The position numbers and the translations under genes were made by a program. The notes under the pieces were generated by a model that saw only the letters and a program-made list of their open reading frames with translations, did not search any database and had not been told where the DNA came from. 21,417 nucleotides of DNA from a virus. The stretch spans positions 1 to 21,417 of the IMG/VR virus record IMGVR_UViG_3300044825_000094; one strand, 5' to 3'. Below, piece by piece: positions 3,966 through 14,392 of this stretch. How positions within the stretch are numbered: position 1 is the first letter of the stretch; the number at the start of each line of letters is the position of its first letter.

Positions 3966-4477
3966 GCACCCTTCTTGACAAAGCTCATCGGTACTTCGAC
4001 GGGCTCTCGGTCATCGATGACGGTGTAGCGCTGACCGTTTGGATGCTCACTCGGAGCTGCGACGACATATCCTCGATGCTTAATATCGACACCTTGCCAG
4101 AGGGTTCCCGGAAAACGCATCGACGGATGAGCTTTGTAGTAGAGATGCAAACCGTCACCTGTTTTAACGGTGTAAGTAGCAGGAAAGAACTCGTTAAGCG
4201 CTCCACCATTTCGAAAGTCGATATCGACCACGACAAGGTTTGAAGCGATGCATGAGATTCCAAGATTGGCGATGGGATCTCGGTAAAACCACTCCATGAT
4301 TTTGTATTCATCGGTAGTCGCATCTAAATAAGCGCGACGAATCAAGTTGTGATTGGGTTCTTTTGAGCGCGGCGCGACCGGCATGACTGACCATCCGCGA
4401 CGAGCATAGGCTAAAGCTGCGTCAAGCCATCGTTGATCGGCTGGCTCGACTGGCGGTTCGAGTAGTTGAAGGCTCAT
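3962..4477 (-). CDS. Stand-alone prim-pol domain primase
   Basis: This 171-residue protein matches the bifunctional DNA primase/polymerase N-terminal domain (prim-pol, PF09250 type; archaeo-eukaryotic primase fold). Residues 20-40 (ALAYARRGWSVMPVAPRSKEP) are the typical entry helix and strand. VVVDIDFRNG holds the metal-binding D85-x-D87. TGDGLHLYYK has the conserved H111. VDIKHRGYVVAAPS (130-143) carries the third acid, D131, and the glycine turn. The protein ends straight after the domain, with none of the helicase or C-terminal primase regions that often follow. The ATG at 4477 overlaps the upstream stop as ATGA, and the longer frame to 4579 has no family resemblance. It probably makes primers, or short DNA, for phage replication, relying on host helicase and polymerase. 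Confidence 0.85.
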   Translation of the reverse strand: MSLQLLEPPVEPADQRWLDAALAYARRGWSVMPVAPRSKEPNHNLIRRAYLDATTDEYKIMEWFYRDPIANLGISCIASNLVVVDIDFRNGGALNEFFPATYTVKTGDGLHLYYKAHPSMRFPGTLWQGVDIKHRGYVVAAPSEHPNGQRYTVIDDREPVEVPMSFVKKGA

Positions 4478-4689
4478 GCTGAGACCTCCGCGCCGTTGCG
4501 AGTTAGGCGGTCTATGGCATTTTCTAGTTGAGATATTGCATTTTTCAAAGCCCTTACAGCGATGCCTCGCTCCGTCCATTGAATGTGAACATTTCGGCTT
4601 TTTGATTGCAAGTAAATCTCTGCTTTTTTGATTTGTGCATCGGCAATCTGTAAATGTCTTGCGACTGTCGAATCGTTATTGTGAATCAT
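4474..4689 (-). CDS. Small helical protein of unknown function
   Basis: This 71-residue protein is largely charged and helical, with a heptad-like region from RHLQIADAQIKKAEIYLQSK and a second from VRALKNAISQLENAIDRLTR, suggesting a helical hairpin or coiled coil. The ATG has AAGGGA about 5 nt upstream, and this is the first gene after a 245-bp non-coding gap, so it is the likely start of the early transcript. Its stop overlaps the prim-pol start. It could be a regulator or replication accessory. No domain is recognised. Confidence 0.6.
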   Translation of the reverse strand: MIHNNDSTVARHLQIADAQIKKAEIYLQSKSRNVHIQWTERGIAVRALKNAISQLENAIDRLTRNGAEVSA

Positions 4690-5970: not shown

Positions 5971-6897
5971 TCAGTAAGCGTAGAGATAAACCTCTTCACG
6001 ATGTTGATTAGCCACGCCGTAGTTTTTGGCAATCTCGGCCATCCGAGTCGTCCAGTTATCCCGATCGGCTGCCTGATTTTTGGCTCGCATAAGGTCAGAG
6101 TAGTTTCGCTCTGCCATATCGGATTCGATGAGGTCAAGGATGAGCCGCTTAGAGCGCTTATAGTCATGGATATTGATGACTTGCAAAGACCACTCAGAAT
6201 AATAATGATCGACATTCGGAGCGCCGTAATAAATCGGCATAGACAATGCTAAGAATGAGTCATAGAGCTTCTCGGAAATGATGTCGTAGCCAAAGCGATT
6301 CTCAATCGCTAGGTGATAGCGATAGGGCGCAATCCCCGGCCATTTATCGGCGAGCGCATTGACGCCATTACCGAACCAATGCAATCTGTCGCCTAGATCT
6401 TCTTTGAGTTTAGAGACGAACTTAAGTCTTAGATAATGCTCTGGCGTAAAGGCTTTAGTTGAGCAGATAACCGATAAGTCATAAGTCTTTTCTACTTGTC
6501 GAAGATTGAGAAAATAATCCTTATCTCTGCCATTTTGCTCAAAGGATGATGAGCCATGATTAGAGTTAATCATCCAGTTTGTAAAAGGTCTGACATGAAC
6601 CTTTCGATCGTCAAGGATGTCATGCATCGTAAAGAGTTTAGAAAACTGGCTCAGATACTTCTTGCCTTTTGGCTCATCAAAGCGACCAATCGGATAGCAG
6701 ATTTCGGCAGTCATAAAGAAGATGTTGCGACGATCTATTAAAGCCTTGTCGCCTTCAACACCGTCATCAAAGACCATCCAGACATCGGGATTTTCTACTT
6801 CGGTATTAACGAAGAACTCTGCCGGTGAATCCTTGCCAGTCCATTCGGCGAGTGATGCATGAGTGCGAGCGCCGGGAATGGTGACCTTAATCTTCAT
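5971..6897 (-). CDS. GT10 fucosyltransferase-like glycosyltransferase
   Basis: The 308-residue protein has the clear C-terminal donor-binding signature of family GT10 (alpha-1,3/1,4-fucosyltransferases) at residues 191-230: PYRYHLAIENRFGYDIISEK followed by LYDSFLALSMPIYYGAPN. It corresponds to the family's 'YKF.LAFENS....Y.TEKL..A......P...G...' block. The N-terminal half (acceptor side) is divergent, ending in the KTYDLSVICSTKAFTPEHYLRLKF region. The ATG overlaps the preceding glycosyltransferase stop as ATGA, so the two should be made together. It likely transfers a GDP-activated fucose-like sugar. The acceptor may be a phage structural protein or a host surface glycan, which is inference. 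There is no membrane segment. Confidence 0.8.
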   Translation of the reverse strand: MKIKVTIPGARTHASLAEWTGKDSPAEFFVNTEVENPDVWMVFDDGVEGDKALIDRRNIFFMTAEICYPIGRFDEPKGKKYLSQFSKLFTMHDILDDRKVHVRPFTNWMINSNHGSSSFEQNGRDKDYFLNLRQVEKTYDLSVICSTKAFTPEHYLRLKFVSKLKEDLGDRLHWFGNGVNALADKWPGIAPYRYHLAIENRFGYDIISEKLYDSFLALSMPIYYGAPNVDHYYSEWSLQVINIHDYKRSKRLILDLIESDMAERNYSDLMRAKNQAADRDNWTTRMAEIAKNYGVANQHREEVYLYAY

Positions 6898-8434: not shown

Positions 8435-8756
8435 CCCAATCTAGTTGTGACTCATCCCATACAAAGAAACCTTCGGGTTTAGGTTTAGGCGGCTGCCAAT
8501 CGTGATTGGCGTCCAATGTCCACGATGGGAAAGGTTGCGGTGAAATAAACACATCGGCAATCGCATCGTAGCGATCTCCAATGGCGGCATATTTTTTGCG
8601 AATCTTATTGTTATAAGAAGTGCGCTTAACCGTGTATGGCGTGCCCTGTGCATAATAAGTTTCAGTATCCATGCCGTCGATAAGTTCGGTTTCGTCTTTA
8701 CCGACTGTGACCGTGACGACGATGTTATTTTCGTCAAGATATGCGTAGTGCGCCAT
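8412..8756 (-). CDS. Accessory tail/structural protein with environmental-phage module
   Basis: This 114-residue protein begins MAHYAYLDENNIVVTVTVG. The second part (TSYNNKIRKKYAAIGDRYD, then VFISPQPFPSWTLDANHDWQPPKPKPEGFFVWDESQLDWVEV) matches a module I recognise from marine T4-like and other environmental phages: 'R.NYAGIG..YD...DAFIPP.PYPSW.LD....W.PP...P......W......W'. Its proline/tryptophan pattern suggests an extended beta structure, and it is often encoded among tail genes, though its role is undefined. ATG 8756 is used rather than the TTG at 8765 because it forms a TAATG overlap with the upstream adhesin stop. It may assist adhesin folding or attach to the tail tip; that is inference. 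Confidence 0.7.
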   Translation of the reverse strand: MAHYAYLDENNIVVTVTVGKDETELIDGMDTETYYAQGTPYTVKRTSYNNKIRKKYAAIGDRYDAIADVFISPQPFPSWTLDANHDWQPPKPKPEGFFVWDESQLDWVEVDPQS

Positions 8757-9679
8757 TATGACCAAGTTACCGTATCTGCTACACCAGCAGCCGTAATGGT
8801 GCTGATTTTGAATGATCCGCTTGTTTGTGTCGTTGATGTAACACCGCCAGAAAATGCGGCTGTATAAACATTGGGATAACGAAGAATCACGATGCCAGAA
8901 CCGCCATTTCCGCCCGTTCCATAAGCAACGCCTGTATGGGTCCCTTCACCACCACCGCCACCCCCTGTATTCGTAGTGCCAGCAGTTCCATTTTGAAAGT
9001 TTGACGGGCCGCCCAATCCACCCGCACCACCGCCGCCAGAGCCTCCGTTACCAGCCCGTGTTGGTGCAGTTTTTCCTGTGTCATAAGATGCACCGCCGCC
9101 ACCTCCGCCAGCATAAGTTGTTGATGATCCGCTAATGGAAGTTGCAGCACCATTTCCGCCATCGCCGCCAAGAAGTGAACCGCCAGCAGTTCCGGCTACG
9201 CCAGCACCTCCGCCACCGCCTGCCATATAAGTATTTGCAGGTGACTCAGCACCATTTCCGCCAGCGAAACCCTGATTACTAGTTCCGGATCCGCCAGTTC
9301 CAGTAACGCCGGGACGACTTGCTCCACCGCCGCCAGAGCCACCTGAAGCTGCTGTCGTGCCACCACCACCACCGCCGCCAGTTGATGTGATAGTGCTGAA
9401 AACTGAGTTAGCCCCATTTGCTCCTGGATCAATAACAGTTTTTCCAAGTCCACCGCCACCGACTGTGACCGTATAAGCAACGCCTGTTGAAAGATTTAAT
9501 GCAGATTCAAGGCTGCCACCACCGCCTGTTGCGGTTACTGTGCAACGCAATCCACCGCCGCCTCCACCGCCGCCAGCACCTTCACGACTACCACCGCCTC
9601 CACCGCCAGCGACAACAAGGTAATCAACAGTTAAAGCAGGTTTAACTTGTTGTTGAGCGACTATCCCAAGAATGTTCAT
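8756..9679 (-). CDS. Glycine-rich tail adhesin
   Basis: This 307-residue protein begins MNILGIVAQQQVKPALTVDYLVVAGGGGGG and is dominated by glycine blocks, about a dozen runs of 4-8 Gly, interleaved with Ser/Thr/Ala/Asn stretches. It ends in the conserved GGSGIVILRYP segment and a TSGSFKISTITAAGVADTVTWS tail. Such repeats form polyglycine-II sandwiches in T-even-type receptor adhesins (gp38-like), and the 'VDYLVVAGGGGG ... GIVILRYP' frame is typical of tail-tip adhesins. It is the likely host-receptor binding protein. The repetitive GC-rich codons also make long antisense open frames, which are artefacts. It follows the short fibre-like gene by 1 bp. Confidence 0.75.
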   Translation of the reverse strand: MNILGIVAQQQVKPALTVDYLVVAGGGGGGSREGAGGGGGGGGLRCTVTATGGGGSLESALNLSTGVAYTVTVGGGGLGKTVIDPGANGANSVFSTITSTGGGGGGGTTAASGGSGGGGASRPGVTGTGGSGTSNQGFAGGNGAESPANTYMAGGGGGAGVAGTAGGSLLGGDGGNGAATSISGSSTTYAGGGGGGASYDTGKTAPTRAGNGGSGGGGAGGLGGPSNFQNGTAGTTNTGGGGGGEGTHTGVAYGTGGNGGSGIVILRYPNVYTAAFSGGVTSTTQTSGSFKISTITAAGVADTVTWS

Positions 9680-10104: not shown

Positions 10105-11352
10105 CTAGTAGCTCAAAAAATCTTCGTCAAGAACACCATCGACGGAAGAATCTAGCACGAATCCTACCGCGAAAGGCTGCGCAGTTGTGAATATTGCCGT
10201 GAAGTTGTTAGGCGATATATCGTAGCCGACACCGGTGACAACGCTATTAACCGTGACCGCACCCGATGGCAGGGTTTGGGTAGCCCTGATTGGCGTAAAA
10301 ATATCCATATCAAGCCCTGCCACGACACGGCTTGGCTGATCGTCACTTGCCAGATTGACCGTGATGGATTGAAGATTGATGTCCGTGCCGATTTCCTTTC
10401 GGCTGGCAATAATCAGTTGAGCCTGAGATAAGGCATCCGCATCGGTCTGCATGATTCCGCTACGAATACGAGAATGCTCGAAATAGGCCAAAATGGAAGC
10501 TGAATCGGTGGCAGTTTGAGCCGTGCCTCCGGTGCGAGTGACCGTTGCTCGGTTAATAAGACCGGCATCCGAAAGGTCAAAGTTGATGGCTTGATAGGTA
10601 ATGGCACTCGTGGAAACGATATCGCTGAAAATATAGGGCGTCCCACCAGATGCCGAGATGATGTCATTGCGGCTTTTGAAGTTAGCAAAGCCACGCTCAT
10701 CCATATAAAAAGCACCAAGTTCAGTCTGCTCAACCGTCTGACAAGCCCCAAGAAGCGACCGAGAGGATGAGTCGTCGGCTTGCACCGTTGTCGTTGCCGT
10801 CGTGCTGATAGAGCGCATCGCTGGCCAGTCTCCGGCATCCAAAAGGCTCGTAATGCGTTGAGCAGTTGTCTGACCGGCCGAGCCGCCGGTTACGGTGTTA
10901 ATCGTCGTCAGATTAAGAAGCTGAAAACCATCAACGCAGTTAAGATCAACAAAGGCCGGAGTGACGCCTATGGGACTCGTATATTTCCACTCTTGAATAT
11001 ACATCGAACCAATGGCGTATTCGTTTCCCAGATAACTCCCAGAAAAACGAATCTTACGCATTGGCAAAATCTTTCCGTAGTTTGCTCCCGAAGTGTTGGC
11101 TGGGTTAAAAAGCCCTGTTTGGTCAATGAGCCTTACTTGTGCCGAGCCGCCTAAGAAGGAATCGCTCGTTCGGTTATAGGAGCGCCTGATTCGTGCCGAG
11201 ATAACATATTGAGTCACATCAAGGGTATCGGCTGCCGCCGTACCAAGAACCGCTAAATCAAGCGGAGTCGTCGGATCGTCAAGCACTAGCGCTGGGTCGA
11301 ATGTTGCTCCGTTGCTAAAGTCAATAACGCACTTAAAGACCGCGCCAGCCAT
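10105..11352 (-). CDS. Minor tail / tail-tip hub-like protein
   Basis: This 415-residue protein follows the tape measure gene with a TAATG overlap, the usual place for distal tail or hub proteins. It begins MAGAVFKCVIDFSNGATFDPALV, has VTQYVISARIRRSYNRTSDSFLGGSAQVRLIDQTGLFNP (typical of actinobacteriophage minor tail proteins) and a long beta-rich body. The region from VDLNCVDGFQLLNL to the 'FYMDERGFANFKSRNDI' stretch resembles the hub-type fold of baseplate proteins. No enzymatic motif is seen. It likely closes the tail tip and binds the short fibre. The exact component (Dit-like or Tal-like) cannot be fixed from sequence. Confidence 0.65.
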   Translation of the reverse strand: MAGAVFKCVIDFSNGATFDPALVLDDPTTPLDLAVLGTAAADTLDVTQYVISARIRRSYNRTSDSFLGGSAQVRLIDQTGLFNPANTSGANYGKILPMRKIRFSGSYLGNEYAIGSMYIQEWKYTSPIGVTPAFVDLNCVDGFQLLNLTTINTVTGGSAGQTTAQRITSLLDAGDWPAMRSISTTATTTVQADDSSSRSLLGACQTVEQTELGAFYMDERGFANFKSRNDIISASGGTPYIFSDIVSTSAITYQAINFDLSDAGLINRATVTRTGGTAQTATDSASILAYFEHSRIRSGIMQTDADALSQAQLIIASRKEIGTDINLQSITVNLASDDQPSRVVAGLDMDIFTPIRATQTLPSGAVTVNSVVTGVGYDISPNNFTAIFTTAQPFAVGFVLDSSVDGVLDEDFLSY

Positions 11353-12941
11353 TAGCGCCCCAGATTAACAAGCTGAGAGTTTGTGCCTTGTCGGTTGATT
11401 TGGAAGATGGCATCAACATAGTTATCAAAGAGTTCTCGCTCGGTAGTGACATTTCCTTGAATGTTTTGGATAACCGTTATCTGTTGTCCGACGGCAGTAG
11501 CAGCGCTTAAAGCGGCTGCGCCTTGTTGCTCTGCCTGACCAGCCAGCGAAAGCGCCATGAATGCTTCGGCGATATTGGCAGGGATTGTCGGTTCAATCTG
11601 CAAAGTGGGAGAGGTCACATTTTGCGCACTTACGGCCGTGCCGGTGATAGATGCAGCTCTCGCTTGCGATAACTTAACTAATGCATCAAGTTCGGCTTGA
11701 AGGTCTGCTAGTCGCTGATTCTTTACCGCAGCGCTGGCAATAATGGATTCGCGTGCTTGACGCTGGATTTCGGCTTCGCGCTTCTTCTCTAGCTCAATAA
11801 GTTTATTGAGTGCGGCCTCATCGTCTTTGACGCCTTCGGTCTTTAGAGCTTGCAAAGCCTCAACACGCGAGCGATCTGTTTCGCTTAGATTCCTTTGAGC
11901 TGCGGCTGCAAGGTTAATGTTTTCGATGTCGAACTTAGCCTCTAGGCGCTTCTTTAACCGGTCTGCCGCTTCTTCGGCTGCCTTTTGAGCTTTCTTTTTG
12001 CGCTCTAATGCGGCGGCACGAGCAGCCGATAACTTGGCCAATCGTTCAAGCTCTTCTCTATTGGCCTTTTCTTCCAAGAAGTCTTGACGACGCTGACGCG
12101 CCCTAGCTCTAACCTGAGCAGGATCGTCAGTCGGGTCAAGAAGCCCAAGTTTAACGAGAAGATCATAAATATATTGGATTGCTTTGCCTGACGCTTCAAA
12201 GGCTTTACCGATGCCTTCGGCAATCTTCACAATCTTGTCGAGTCCCTTTTGCAAGTTTCCATCGCCAAGAGCAGTCAATCCGTCAAGGATGCCTTTACCG
12301 ATTGCTTCGCCAGCTTCATCCAGACGGGTTTTTAGATATTCCATCTTGCCGGCATAAGTGTCCAGATATTGTTCGCCAGCCGTGCCATAGAGTTTTTCTA
12401 ACTCTTTGAGGACAACGCTGAAATCCTTGCCTTCAAGTGCAGCCTTGCTCAAACCGATTTGTAGTCGCTTTAACTGAGTATTGTTTCCATTAAATGCGCG
12501 AGTTAATGCCGTGATAATTGTTTCAAGGTCTTGCCCGGTGCCTCGACTGACATCAATGGCAATGTTAAGAAGTGCTTGGCTTGCACCGACATTTTTAAGT
12601 TCTCGAAGAAGTCTGCCGAATGCCGGACGAAGTTGATCGTCCACGACGCCAGTTAATGTTTGAAGTTTTCCTAAAAACTCTTCGACCCCTACGGCTTCAA
12701 AGCCTTTGCCAAGATTGTTAAGCAGGATTTCAAGCCGCTTAATCTCTTTGCCTTCATCAATAAAGCCACGCAAAGATTTAGCCAAGACAGTAAAGATTGC
12801 TCCGATACCAGCATAACGAAGCATGGTGCGACGAAGTGATTTGAACTTTTTATCTAATCCAAAAGTGGAGCGACCGAGTTGATCTAAGCCTTTGGTCTGC
12901 GTCTTGGTAAAGAAGTTGATGATGACATTACGGCTCAACAT
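11352..12941 (-). CDS. Tail tape measure protein
   Basis: This 529-residue protein is long, Ala/Leu/Lys-rich and largely helical. The N-terminal part, with MLRYAGIGAIFTVLAKSLRGFIDEGKEIKRLE, is typical of tape measure proteins (hydrophobic patch, then helices). About residues 285-435 are a charged coiled coil of KKKAQKAAEEAADRL type. The C-terminus (VGQQITVIQNIQGNVTTERELFDNYVDAIFQINRQG) has the usual 'I.I.G.VT.E.EL...V..A' tape measure ending. At about 0.15 nm per residue the tail would be roughly 80 nm, an estimate only. No muralytic domain is seen. It starts with a TAATG overlap after the gp10-like gene. Confidence 0.8.
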   Translation of the reverse strand: MLSRNVIINFFTKTQTKGLDQLGRSTFGLDKKFKSLRRTMLRYAGIGAIFTVLAKSLRGFIDEGKEIKRLEILLNNLGKGFEAVGVEEFLGKLQTLTGVVDDQLRPAFGRLLRELKNVGASQALLNIAIDVSRGTGQDLETIITALTRAFNGNNTQLKRLQIGLSKAALEGKDFSVVLKELEKLYGTAGEQYLDTYAGKMEYLKTRLDEAGEAIGKGILDGLTALGDGNLQKGLDKIVKIAEGIGKAFEASGKAIQYIYDLLVKLGLLDPTDDPAQVRARARQRRQDFLEEKANREELERLAKLSAARAAALERKKKAQKAAEEAADRLKKRLEAKFDIENINLAAAAQRNLSETDRSRVEALQALKTEGVKDDEAALNKLIELEKKREAEIQRQARESIIASAAVKNQRLADLQAELDALVKLSQARAASITGTAVSAQNVTSPTLQIEPTIPANIAEAFMALSLAGQAEQQGAAALSAATAVGQQITVIQNIQGNVTTERELFDNYVDAIFQINRQGTNSQLVNLGR

Positions 12942-13546
12942 TAGCGATTCCTCACAAACTTATAGAGACGCTCATCTAAGACCTTTTGAATGTCATCAAG
13001 TGCCTTCTTGCCTTTCGTAGCGGCTGCGCGATAAACAAGACGCTTTGGCTTGCCTCGACGATAATCCATCGCATTGACGAAATCGGTGCGTGAATCTGGA
13101 TTGCGGCTGACGCGTTTTGTGCGCCTGACGGACGAACCTTTTCCTGATCCGGTGAGTTCATAGATGATGCCCGGTGCAGTTGTGTTAATCAATGAGACGA
13201 CTGAAACTTCTTCTTTGCCAAAGGATGCTCGACCAGTTCTAAACTTAGCTCGGCTGACCTTAATGCCGCGCCTGACATCACTTGGCGACCATTTCCATCG
13301 AATGCCAGCGTCACGGCCTCGATGCTCATAATCATTTACCCATGAAGCGCTCGTGTAAGTAGGTTCTGACTGGCGCCAGTTACTTATCGGGTTTTGATCT
13401 GGGACGAGCTTGCGAGCTTCGTCTCTAACTGGCCTGACGGCTTTTGTTAAACCCTTCATCAAGTCACTTCGCAGTTTAGGATTCAAGGCTTTAAGATCCT
13501 TCAACAAGTCATCAAGATTGGCGACTTGAATCTGACTTTGAATCAT
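12941..13546 (-). CDS. HK97 gp10-like minor tail/head-tail protein
   Basis: This 201-residue protein starts MIQSQIQVANLDDLLKDLKALNPKLRSDLMKGLTKAVRPVRDEARKLVP, the family pattern of HK97 gp10-like (PF04883-like) proteins: an entry strand and helix, then 'A..V...A..LVP....'. A lysine/arginine-rich middle and a 'L..E.I.K.V....' helix close it. The perfect AAGGAGG site 7 nt before ATG 13546 fixes the start; the upstream frame to 13639 is actually the -1 frame of the chaperone. In most phages this gene lies before the major tail gene. Here it lies after the chaperones and just before the tape measure, so its role (tail completion or head-tail joining) is less sure than the family call. Confidence 0.65.
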   Translation of the reverse strand: MIQSQIQVANLDDLLKDLKALNPKLRSDLMKGLTKAVRPVRDEARKLVPDQNPISNWRQSEPTYTSASWVNDYEHRGRDAGIRWKWSPSDVRRGIKVSRAKFRTGRASFGKEEVSVVSLINTTAPGIIYELTGSGKGSSVRRTKRVSRNPDSRTDFVNAMDYRRGKPKRLVYRAAATKGKKALDDIQKVLDERLYKFVRNR

Positions 13547-13547
13547 C

Positions 13548-13966
13548 TCATCGCCTCCTTCTGACCTGTTGCGACTGCGCTTGGCCACGCTGTTGCAAAA
13601 TGGCCTTGATGGCCGTGTAAATCGCTGGATCGCATTCAAGCAAAGCGTTAGGAGCTATGCCTGTAAGCACCGCAACGGAAGCGACCTCGTAAATGTCTCC
13701 GTTACGGTCTATCCATTTTTTGCATCAAGGATGATGTCAATGTCATCGTATTGATCGATGAACTCATCGCCGAACTCCAAAGTGGTCTGACCTTTGGCCT
13801 TGACTAAGAAGTAAGCCAAGTGCCAAAGGTCGCGCTCCATTTGTTGCTCGACCAATCGCTTACGCCATCCCTGTTGATAGTGAGCCTCAAAGGCCACTCT
13901 CGCGCTTGCAGTCAAGTCATAGAGGGCTTCTGAGCCATCCTTCTTGACTATCTTGATCTGATGCAT
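13548..13966 (-). CDS. Tail assembly chaperone, -1 frameshift product (G-T type)
   Basis: Reading 13966 to 13715 in the first frame and then slipping -1 gives a 139-residue protein. The first 84 residues equal the 85-residue chaperone below (less its last Gly). The next 55 continue WIDRNGDIYEVASVAVLTGI then APNALLECDPAIYTAIKAIL and end QSQQVRRRR, stopping at 13548. The 'LLECDPA.Y.A...IL' segment is the hallmark of the T extension of actinobacteriophage chaperones, so the second frame is coding, not chance. The stop at 13548 overlaps the next gene's Shine-Dalgarno. The product would bind the tape measure protein during tail assembly and is normally absent from the virion. Confidence 0.85.
13709..13966 (-). 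CDS. Tail assembly chaperone, G-type
   Basis: The unshifted 85-residue product begins MHQIKIVKKDGSEALYDLTASARVAFEAHYQQGWRKRLVEQQMERDLWHLAYFLVKAKG and ends DDIDIILDAKNG. This 'AFE......G........R...LW.LAY.....' layout is that of the small tail chaperone located between major tail and tape measure genes of long-tailed phages. AAGGGA precedes the ATG by about 6 nt. It is the first member of the frameshifting pair; the slip occurs six codons before its TAG. It is preceded by the major tail gene (18-bp gap). Confidence 0.8.
   Translation of the reverse strand: MHQIKIVKKDGSEALYDLTASARVAFEAHYQQGWRKRLVEQQMERDLWHLAYFLVKAKGQTTLEFGDEFIDQYDDIDIILDAKNG
13715..13721 (-). promoter_or_regulatory. -1 programmed frameshift slippery heptamer A AAA AAT
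   Basis: On the minus strand the codons GCA AAA AAT GGA TAG contain the heptamer A-AAA-AAT in the zero frame, a canonical X-XXY-YYZ -1 slip site. The -1 frame then stays open for 55 further codons with recognisable chaperone-extension sequence. A weak GACC...GGTC and CCG-TAA-CGG pairing lies just 3' of the site and might act as a stimulator. The site is exactly where the G/G-T frameshift of tailed phages is expected. Confidence 0.85.
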
Positions 13967-13984: not shown

Positions 13985-14392
13985 TTAGGCAGTTGCCTTA
14001 GTGATTGCAGTTACCGGAAAGGACGCCGAAACCGAAGCGACTCCATCGATACTTCCGTTGATTGGCGTCCAGTTAGTGATCAAGCATGACATCGAGTAAG
14101 AAGGATTCGTCGTTGAGACGGTTCCTGATACTGGAATGAGCTTGATGTTGAGCTTTGTTCCAAGCGCATCTTCGAAAAGTGCGTTGACGGATGAAGCCGC
14201 AAAATCATTGTAAAGTTCAAGATTGAGAGTCGAGCGTTCGACTCCGGTGATGGCGTTAGCCACCGAATCAGTCATCGCAGTAATATCAACGACATCCAGC
14301 TCACGGTTTAGACTTACGGTATTAACGAAAGTCGTAATGGTGTTAGTGGTGCCGACGACGACCGCGACCTTGTTGCCCATGAATATAGCCAT
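13985..14392 (-). CDS. Major tail protein
   Basis: This 135-residue protein begins MAIFMGNKVAVVVGTTNTITTFVNTVSLNRELDVVDITAMTDSVANAITGVERSTLNLELYND. The 'L.RE.D.VD.T...D......TG......T..L..YND' segment is typical of tail-tube proteins, and the rest is alternating strands with 'NYS.S..I..W.P..G..DGVAS.SASF', a common finishing motif. AAGGAG lies 11 nt before the ATG. MGNK a few residues in is a possible later start. It should form the stacked-ring tube. It is flanked by the terminator-like gene and the chaperone, in standard order. Confidence 0.8.
   Translation of the reverse strand: MAIFMGNKVAVVVGTTNTITTFVNTVSLNRELDVVDITAMTDSVANAITGVERSTLNLELYNDFAASSVNALFEDALGTKLNIKLIPVSGTVSTTNPSYSMSCLITNWTPINGSIDGVASVSASFPVTAITKATA

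Follow-up and report, generated by a model that had tools for sequence, protein, structure and literature searches.

Frameshifting by −1 that joins a T-type domain to a G-type protein is general among the long-tailed double-stranded DNA phages (PMC5009743). In phage lambda, two open reading frames (ORFs) that overlap are found between the genes for the major tail and tape measure proteins; close to the end of the first ORF, a −1 heptamer allows a longer fusion, gpG-T, to be made with the second beside the shorter gpG. Defining traits of such chaperones are absence from the virion and binding of G to the tape measure protein and of T to the major tail protein. In an HK97-like chaperone cluster, frameshifting of 6% and 7% was measured for the two fs-genes tested (PMC3711429). 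Bacterial −1 signals such as those of dnaX and insertion sequence (IS) elements combine a heptamer, a short spacer and a 3′ stem-loop. Here, a 21,417-nucleotide stretch of viral DNA, positions 1 to 21,417 of IMG/VR record IMGVR_UViG_3300044825_000094 and hereafter called the window, was investigated. The minus-strand gene at positions 13548-13966 is very probably a siphovirus G/G-T tail assembly chaperone gene in which a −1 ribosomal frameshift takes place at the heptamer A_AAA_AAT.

The closest described counterpart is in the Pontimonas phage phiPsal1 (MG835450), in which the order major tail protein, chaperone gene, a gene in the place of the window's gp10-like gene, and tape measure is the same, and in which the tail tube and the tape measure are annotated. 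Gene 016 of phiPsal1 ends A_AAA_AAA-TAA and is followed by an unannotated −1 extension (positions 4323-4574 of locus L041, corresponding to 10817-11068 of MG835450). The phiPsal1 and window fusions aligned across the junction and over their whole length (hhalign probability 96%, E 3.7e-9), although at about 29% identity and with gene 016 annotated merely as hypothetical. The annotated start of phiPsal1 gene 017 overlaps the −1 extension of gene 016. A similar unannotated −1 extension (NWRIASLAVDTGIAPSLLMAES...) was seen in gp13 of EBPR siphovirus 6 (L244, 1481-1853), with an in-phase C_CCT_TTG at position 1705. Rhodococcus phages whose major tail protein is related and whose chaperone pairs are annotated were set aside, as no in-phase heptamer was found at their junction.

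The window shares with lambda the architecture described above but differs from it in the heptamer used, and no sequence relation was detectable in the libraries searched. Relative to the dnaX and IS signals, with which it shares heptamer, short spacer and stem-loop, the window heptamer ends in AAT, not AAG, and no Shine-Dalgarno-like stimulator was seen by eye upstream of it. This kind of tail-chaperone frameshift is already known; new are the family itself, the exchange of heptamers at a single site and a covarying hairpin.

The slippery site and its two reading frames

The elements of the gene are the following:
13709-13966, minus strand: 0-frame ORF of the putative G-type protein, 85 residues, ATG to TAG (ORF list and sequence)
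13725-13727, minus strand: stop TGA of the −1 frame, just 5′ of the heptamer and bracketing the slip site; the −1 frame opens 3 nucleotides (nt) upstream of the heptamer
13715-13721, minus strand: slippery heptamer A_AAA_AAT (0-frame gcA AAA AAT), a canonical heptamer being kept in relatives
13709-13711, minus strand: 0-frame stop TAG, one codon 3′ of the heptamer
13548-13715, minus strand: −1-frame extension, putative T-type domain, 55 codons and the stop TGA (13550-13548)

The 85-codon ORF ends GCA AAA AAT GGA TAG (13723-13709) with the heptamer in phase, and after a −1 slip the translation continues as KK followed by WIDRNGDIYEVASVAVLTGIAPNALLECDPAIYTAIKAILQQRGQAQSQQVRRRR up to the TGA. The initial annotation, a −1 programmed frameshift in a tail chaperone gene, gave the span, the heptamer on the minus strand and the 55-codon extension correctly and remains the best reading of the locus; it misplaced the TAG, put six codons after the heptamer where a single sense codon (GGA) intervenes, and the hairpin described below went unnoticed. 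Its statement that the extension has no start codon of its own is right for ATG, whereas an in-frame GTG at 13670 opens an ORF of 40 residues. The ATG of the next gene (13546) directly follows the extension, and AGGAGG is found just 5′ of the extension's TGA.

As stops bracket both frames (TGA 13727-13725, TAG 13711-13709), a −1 slip is confined to about four codons, which is exactly the place of the heptamer. In 13 window genes, 0.31% of the codon positions have an in-phase heptamer of the form X_XXY_YYZ, a rate from which the chance of finding one in a four-codon interval is about 1%. With the conservation in relatives taken into account, the probability of a chance origin is negligible.

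Under the proposed mechanism, most ribosomes would read the 85-codon ORF and stop at the TAG, giving the G protein. In a minority, the Lys-tRNA in the P site (AAA) and the Asn-tRNA in the A site (AAT) would slip back one base onto AAA AAA, and these ribosomes would read 55 further codons to make a G-T fusion of about 139 residues. As in lambda (PMC5009743), G would coat the tape measure protein, and recruitment of the major tail protein would fall to the T part of the less abundant fusion.

A second, overlapping frame that extends the first product was present in the window and in all relatives read. Conservation of the site was followed in several sets of loci, which overlap and consist of related sequences, so that their counts are not independent. 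In all 38 relatives found with the fused protein as query, A_AAA_AAT was in phase at the same place, with stops bracketing both frames. A 17-base DNA pattern made of heptamer, spacer and first hairpin arm detected at least 120 loci, and the two-frame layout was identical in all 120 of those listed; the TAG followed the heptamer by one codon in 112 and by ten codons in 8 of them. In one clade (L022-L040), this ten-codon position puts the 0-frame stop within the hairpin loop.

As both sets are in part biased towards loci with the heptamer, a further search was made with the heptamer-free extension as the sole query. A_AAA_AAT was found in 79 of the resulting 80 loci and C_CCA_AAT in the remaining one (L195), making the heptamer canonical in every case. 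Through the swap in L195, the junction residues become PK in place of KK and a canonical heptamer is retained, so it is the slipperiness that is the conserved trait. A canonical heptamer and the open −1 frame, whose loss in relatives would have spoken against a frameshift, were accordingly kept.

Two further searches, one started from L195 and the other from the extension of phiPsal1, reached 160 distant loci. A canonical heptamer was in phase at the junction in 156, where chance would give roughly 10-13 over the 3368 positions tested. C_CCA_AAA was the most frequent (n = 59), followed by C_CCT_TTA (n = 47), A_AAA_AAA (n = 26), C_CCT_TTG (n = 10), C_CCA_AAT (n = 7) and others (n = 7). Four loci were without a canonical heptamer by the filter used: L292 is cut by the contig end, L300 and L316 have CCCTTCC-like junctions, and L359 has an A7 run at which the frame filter failed. 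Such conservation, including replacement by other canonical heptamers, points to maintenance by function.

The same replacements bear on transcriptional slippage, in which slipping of RNA polymerase on the A6 run would create a mixed mRNA pool that yields both products with no ribosomal slip. In favour of this explanation, six consecutive A's are present in the window and seven in some relatives. However, other relatives have C_CCA_AAT, C_CCA_AAA or C_CCT_TTA there, which are ribosomal heptamers and no long homopolymers; A6 falls below the An, n>7, quoted for transcriptional realignment (PMC3711429); and a covarying hairpin is found at ribosomal spacing. We consider transcriptional slippage very improbable.

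Coding selection was estimated as the ratio of nonsynonymous to synonymous polymorphism (pN/pS) in the 117 nt from the heptamer onward in 14 representatives. For the extension, the values were 0.093 (−1 frame), 1.50 (0 frame) and 6.53 (+1 frame), and no stop was present in the −1 frame of the representatives as opposed to 35 and 30 in the other two. Purifying selection on the extension is confined to the −1 frame. The segment upstream of the heptamer displayed the matching pattern in the 0 frame (pN/pS 0.13-0.21).

A separate gene with an internal start, the GTG at 13670 or a similar codon, would leave the extension unfused. The 40-residue ORF of the window and a GTG at extension codon 16 in 89 of 110 relatives agree with this, yet the start is not conserved, since the window itself has GTT at codon 16 and its GTG at codon 18, and 11 of the 110 relatives are without ATG, GTG or TTG in the first 30 extension codons. 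Moreover, conservation in the −1 frame is among the strongest at the residues that precede every such start (WIDRxGxIYE), and the placement of heptamer and stop would be left unexplained. An independent gene is therefore very unlikely.

Some sequencing methods are prone to errors in A6 runs, and one longer ORF might have been split by a sequencing or assembly error or by decay of the gene. Against this, well over a hundred contigs, each assembled separately, show this combination of two frames, stop and heptamer, and both segments are under selection; the explanation is already refuted, and we give it practically no weight.

A covarying hairpin 3′ of the heptamer

In the window, the RNA downstream of the heptamer folds well (z −2.5). 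Folding and covariation identified a hairpin with two arms:
13699-13708, minus strand: 5′ arm, 10 base pairs (bp), starting 6 nt 3′ of the heptamer
13669-13678, minus strand: 3′ arm, 10 bp, separated from the 5′ arm by a 20-nt loop

The 0-frame stop makes up the last three bases of the 6-nt spacer between heptamer and hairpin. Stimulators located 3′ mostly start 6-9 nt past the shift site (PMC5009743), and the stem lies within this range. A 3′ structure at about this distance is frequent in −1 signals, though not obligatory.

The covariation analysis covered the window together with 49 sequences of the set found with the extension, all 50 being distinct. Pairing was observed in 99.6% of the stem cells, and the covariation score of the stem was 0.305 compared to 0.123 when shuffled and 0.006-0.062 when slid. 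Pair changes were placed on a tree from which the stem had been excluded. For pair 18-49, 16 changes were reconstructed, of which 10 were double, and pairing was kept in all 16; double changes likewise kept pairing at 19-48 and 21-46. Column 18 falls on the third position of an Arg codon and column 49, 31 nt away, on the first position of an Ala/Ser codon, and constraint on the protein is therefore no explanation for their linkage. L195, with its other heptamer, retains the stem through compensations of its own.

An inner 3-bp helix predicted for the window was rejected, being conserved in 64% of cells. A mutual-information scan for a pseudoknot gave no contiguous second helix. The downstream fold of phiPsal1 has no obvious match to the 10-bp stem.

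The hairpin might also be a by-product of codon or amino-acid constraint, with the heptamer alone driving low-level slipping as reported for some tailed phages. Among the distant relatives, those with C_CCA_AAA fold weakly downstream (mean z −1.06), in line with such an account, whereas folding is strong in those with C_CCT_TTA (−4.8) and C_CCT_TTG (−4.3). The double changes that preserve pairing at 18-49, 19-48 and 21-46, with Arg third letters tracking an Ala/Ser first letter, and the 6-nt spacing argue against it, and we judge it unlikely, if less so than the alternatives weighed above. The 10-bp hairpin is thus a likely 3′ stimulator of the slip; situated 6 nt downstream, it would probably pause the ribosome and raise the slip rate.

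The review literature holds that certain tailed phages seemingly do without stimulators (PMC5009743). In contrast, covariation in the window's family indicates that at least some tail-chaperone frameshifts have a 3′ structure. We moderately favour the wider proposal that in a large group of aquatic phages, probably of actinobacteria, the G : G-T ratio is set jointly by the heptamer, the 6-nt spacer holding the stop and the 10-bp hairpin, the last being kept by compensatory changes despite the heptamer swap. The locus would then represent a hairpin-stimulated variant of the usual tail-chaperone frameshift. The hundreds of natural variants provide material on which heptamers and hairpins set this ratio.

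Gene identity and neighbouring genes

Three neighbouring tail genes frame the locus:
13985-14392, minus strand: major tail protein, upstream neighbour (phrog_4574, E 5.6e-15; phiPsal1 tail tube)
12941-13546, minus strand: gp10-like or tail completion (Neck1-like) protein, downstream neighbour (phrog_5, E 3.5e-5)
11352-12941, minus strand: probable tape measure protein, 529 residues (position, in the place of the phiPsal1 tape measure; similarity to EBPR siphovirus 6 gp11, E 2e-29)

A tail terminator gene (phrog_17840) is also located upstream. The gene in question thus has the major tail protein gene on one side and the tape measure gene on the other, with one further gene intervening on the tape measure side. 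The name tail chaperone rests on this synteny, the frameshift architecture and the homology to the unannotated phiPsal1 gene, and a large group of phages where the gene has no name would thereby gain a chaperone pair.

Some observations weigh against the assignment. Searches of Pfam, PHROG and NCBIfam with the fusion, its parts and diverse relatives gave no functional or tail-chaperone match, and a fold search of the PDB with the N-terminal model returned chance matches only. The protein at 11352-12941 had no match in the phage libraries and is considered the probable tape measure protein mainly by its position. A_AAA_AAC is reported to be much less shift-prone than A_AAA_AAG in Escherichia coli (PMC5009743); A_AAA_AAT may be similarly low in shiftiness, which makes its efficiency in the host uncertain. 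As to the libraries, chaperone ORFs of different phages share low similarity (PMC5009743); known chaperones are too divergent for a missing match to exclude membership. A tblastn search of the named phages with the fusion likewise gave no match.

The N-terminal part has a compact predicted fold (mean predicted local distance difference test, pLDDT, 87) and its model matched small uncharacterised phage proteins in BFVD (best E 8e-7). The extension is also predicted to be compact (pLDDT 79), with two short strands and three helices, and its BFVD matches were weak and again to small uncharacterised phage proteins.

The gp10-like gene lies between the chaperone and tape measure genes and not upstream of the major tail protein gene, a difference from the lambda arrangement; a similar-sized gene is in its place in phiPsal1. 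Compared with L003, L008, L010, L018 and L021, the DNA similarity of the window, 75-87% elsewhere, is lost at 12006-12904, in the initial part of the tape measure gene, and is regained beyond it, which suggests exchange or fast change there.

No relatives were present in genome contigs, and neither a host nor a prophage was found in this way. An actinobacterial host appears likely from the relationship of the terminase to actinobacteriophage terminases and from the nearest named relative, a phage of Pontimonas. Outside the tail genes, 5971-6897 encodes a family 10 glycosyltransferase (fucosyltransferase-like, Pfam E 2e-7), and the structural region of phiPsal1 also has glycosyltransferase genes. 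Adjoining the tail genes, the product of 8756-9679 contains a glycine-rich domain (Gly_rich_2, E 9e-14) and may be a tail tip adhesin.
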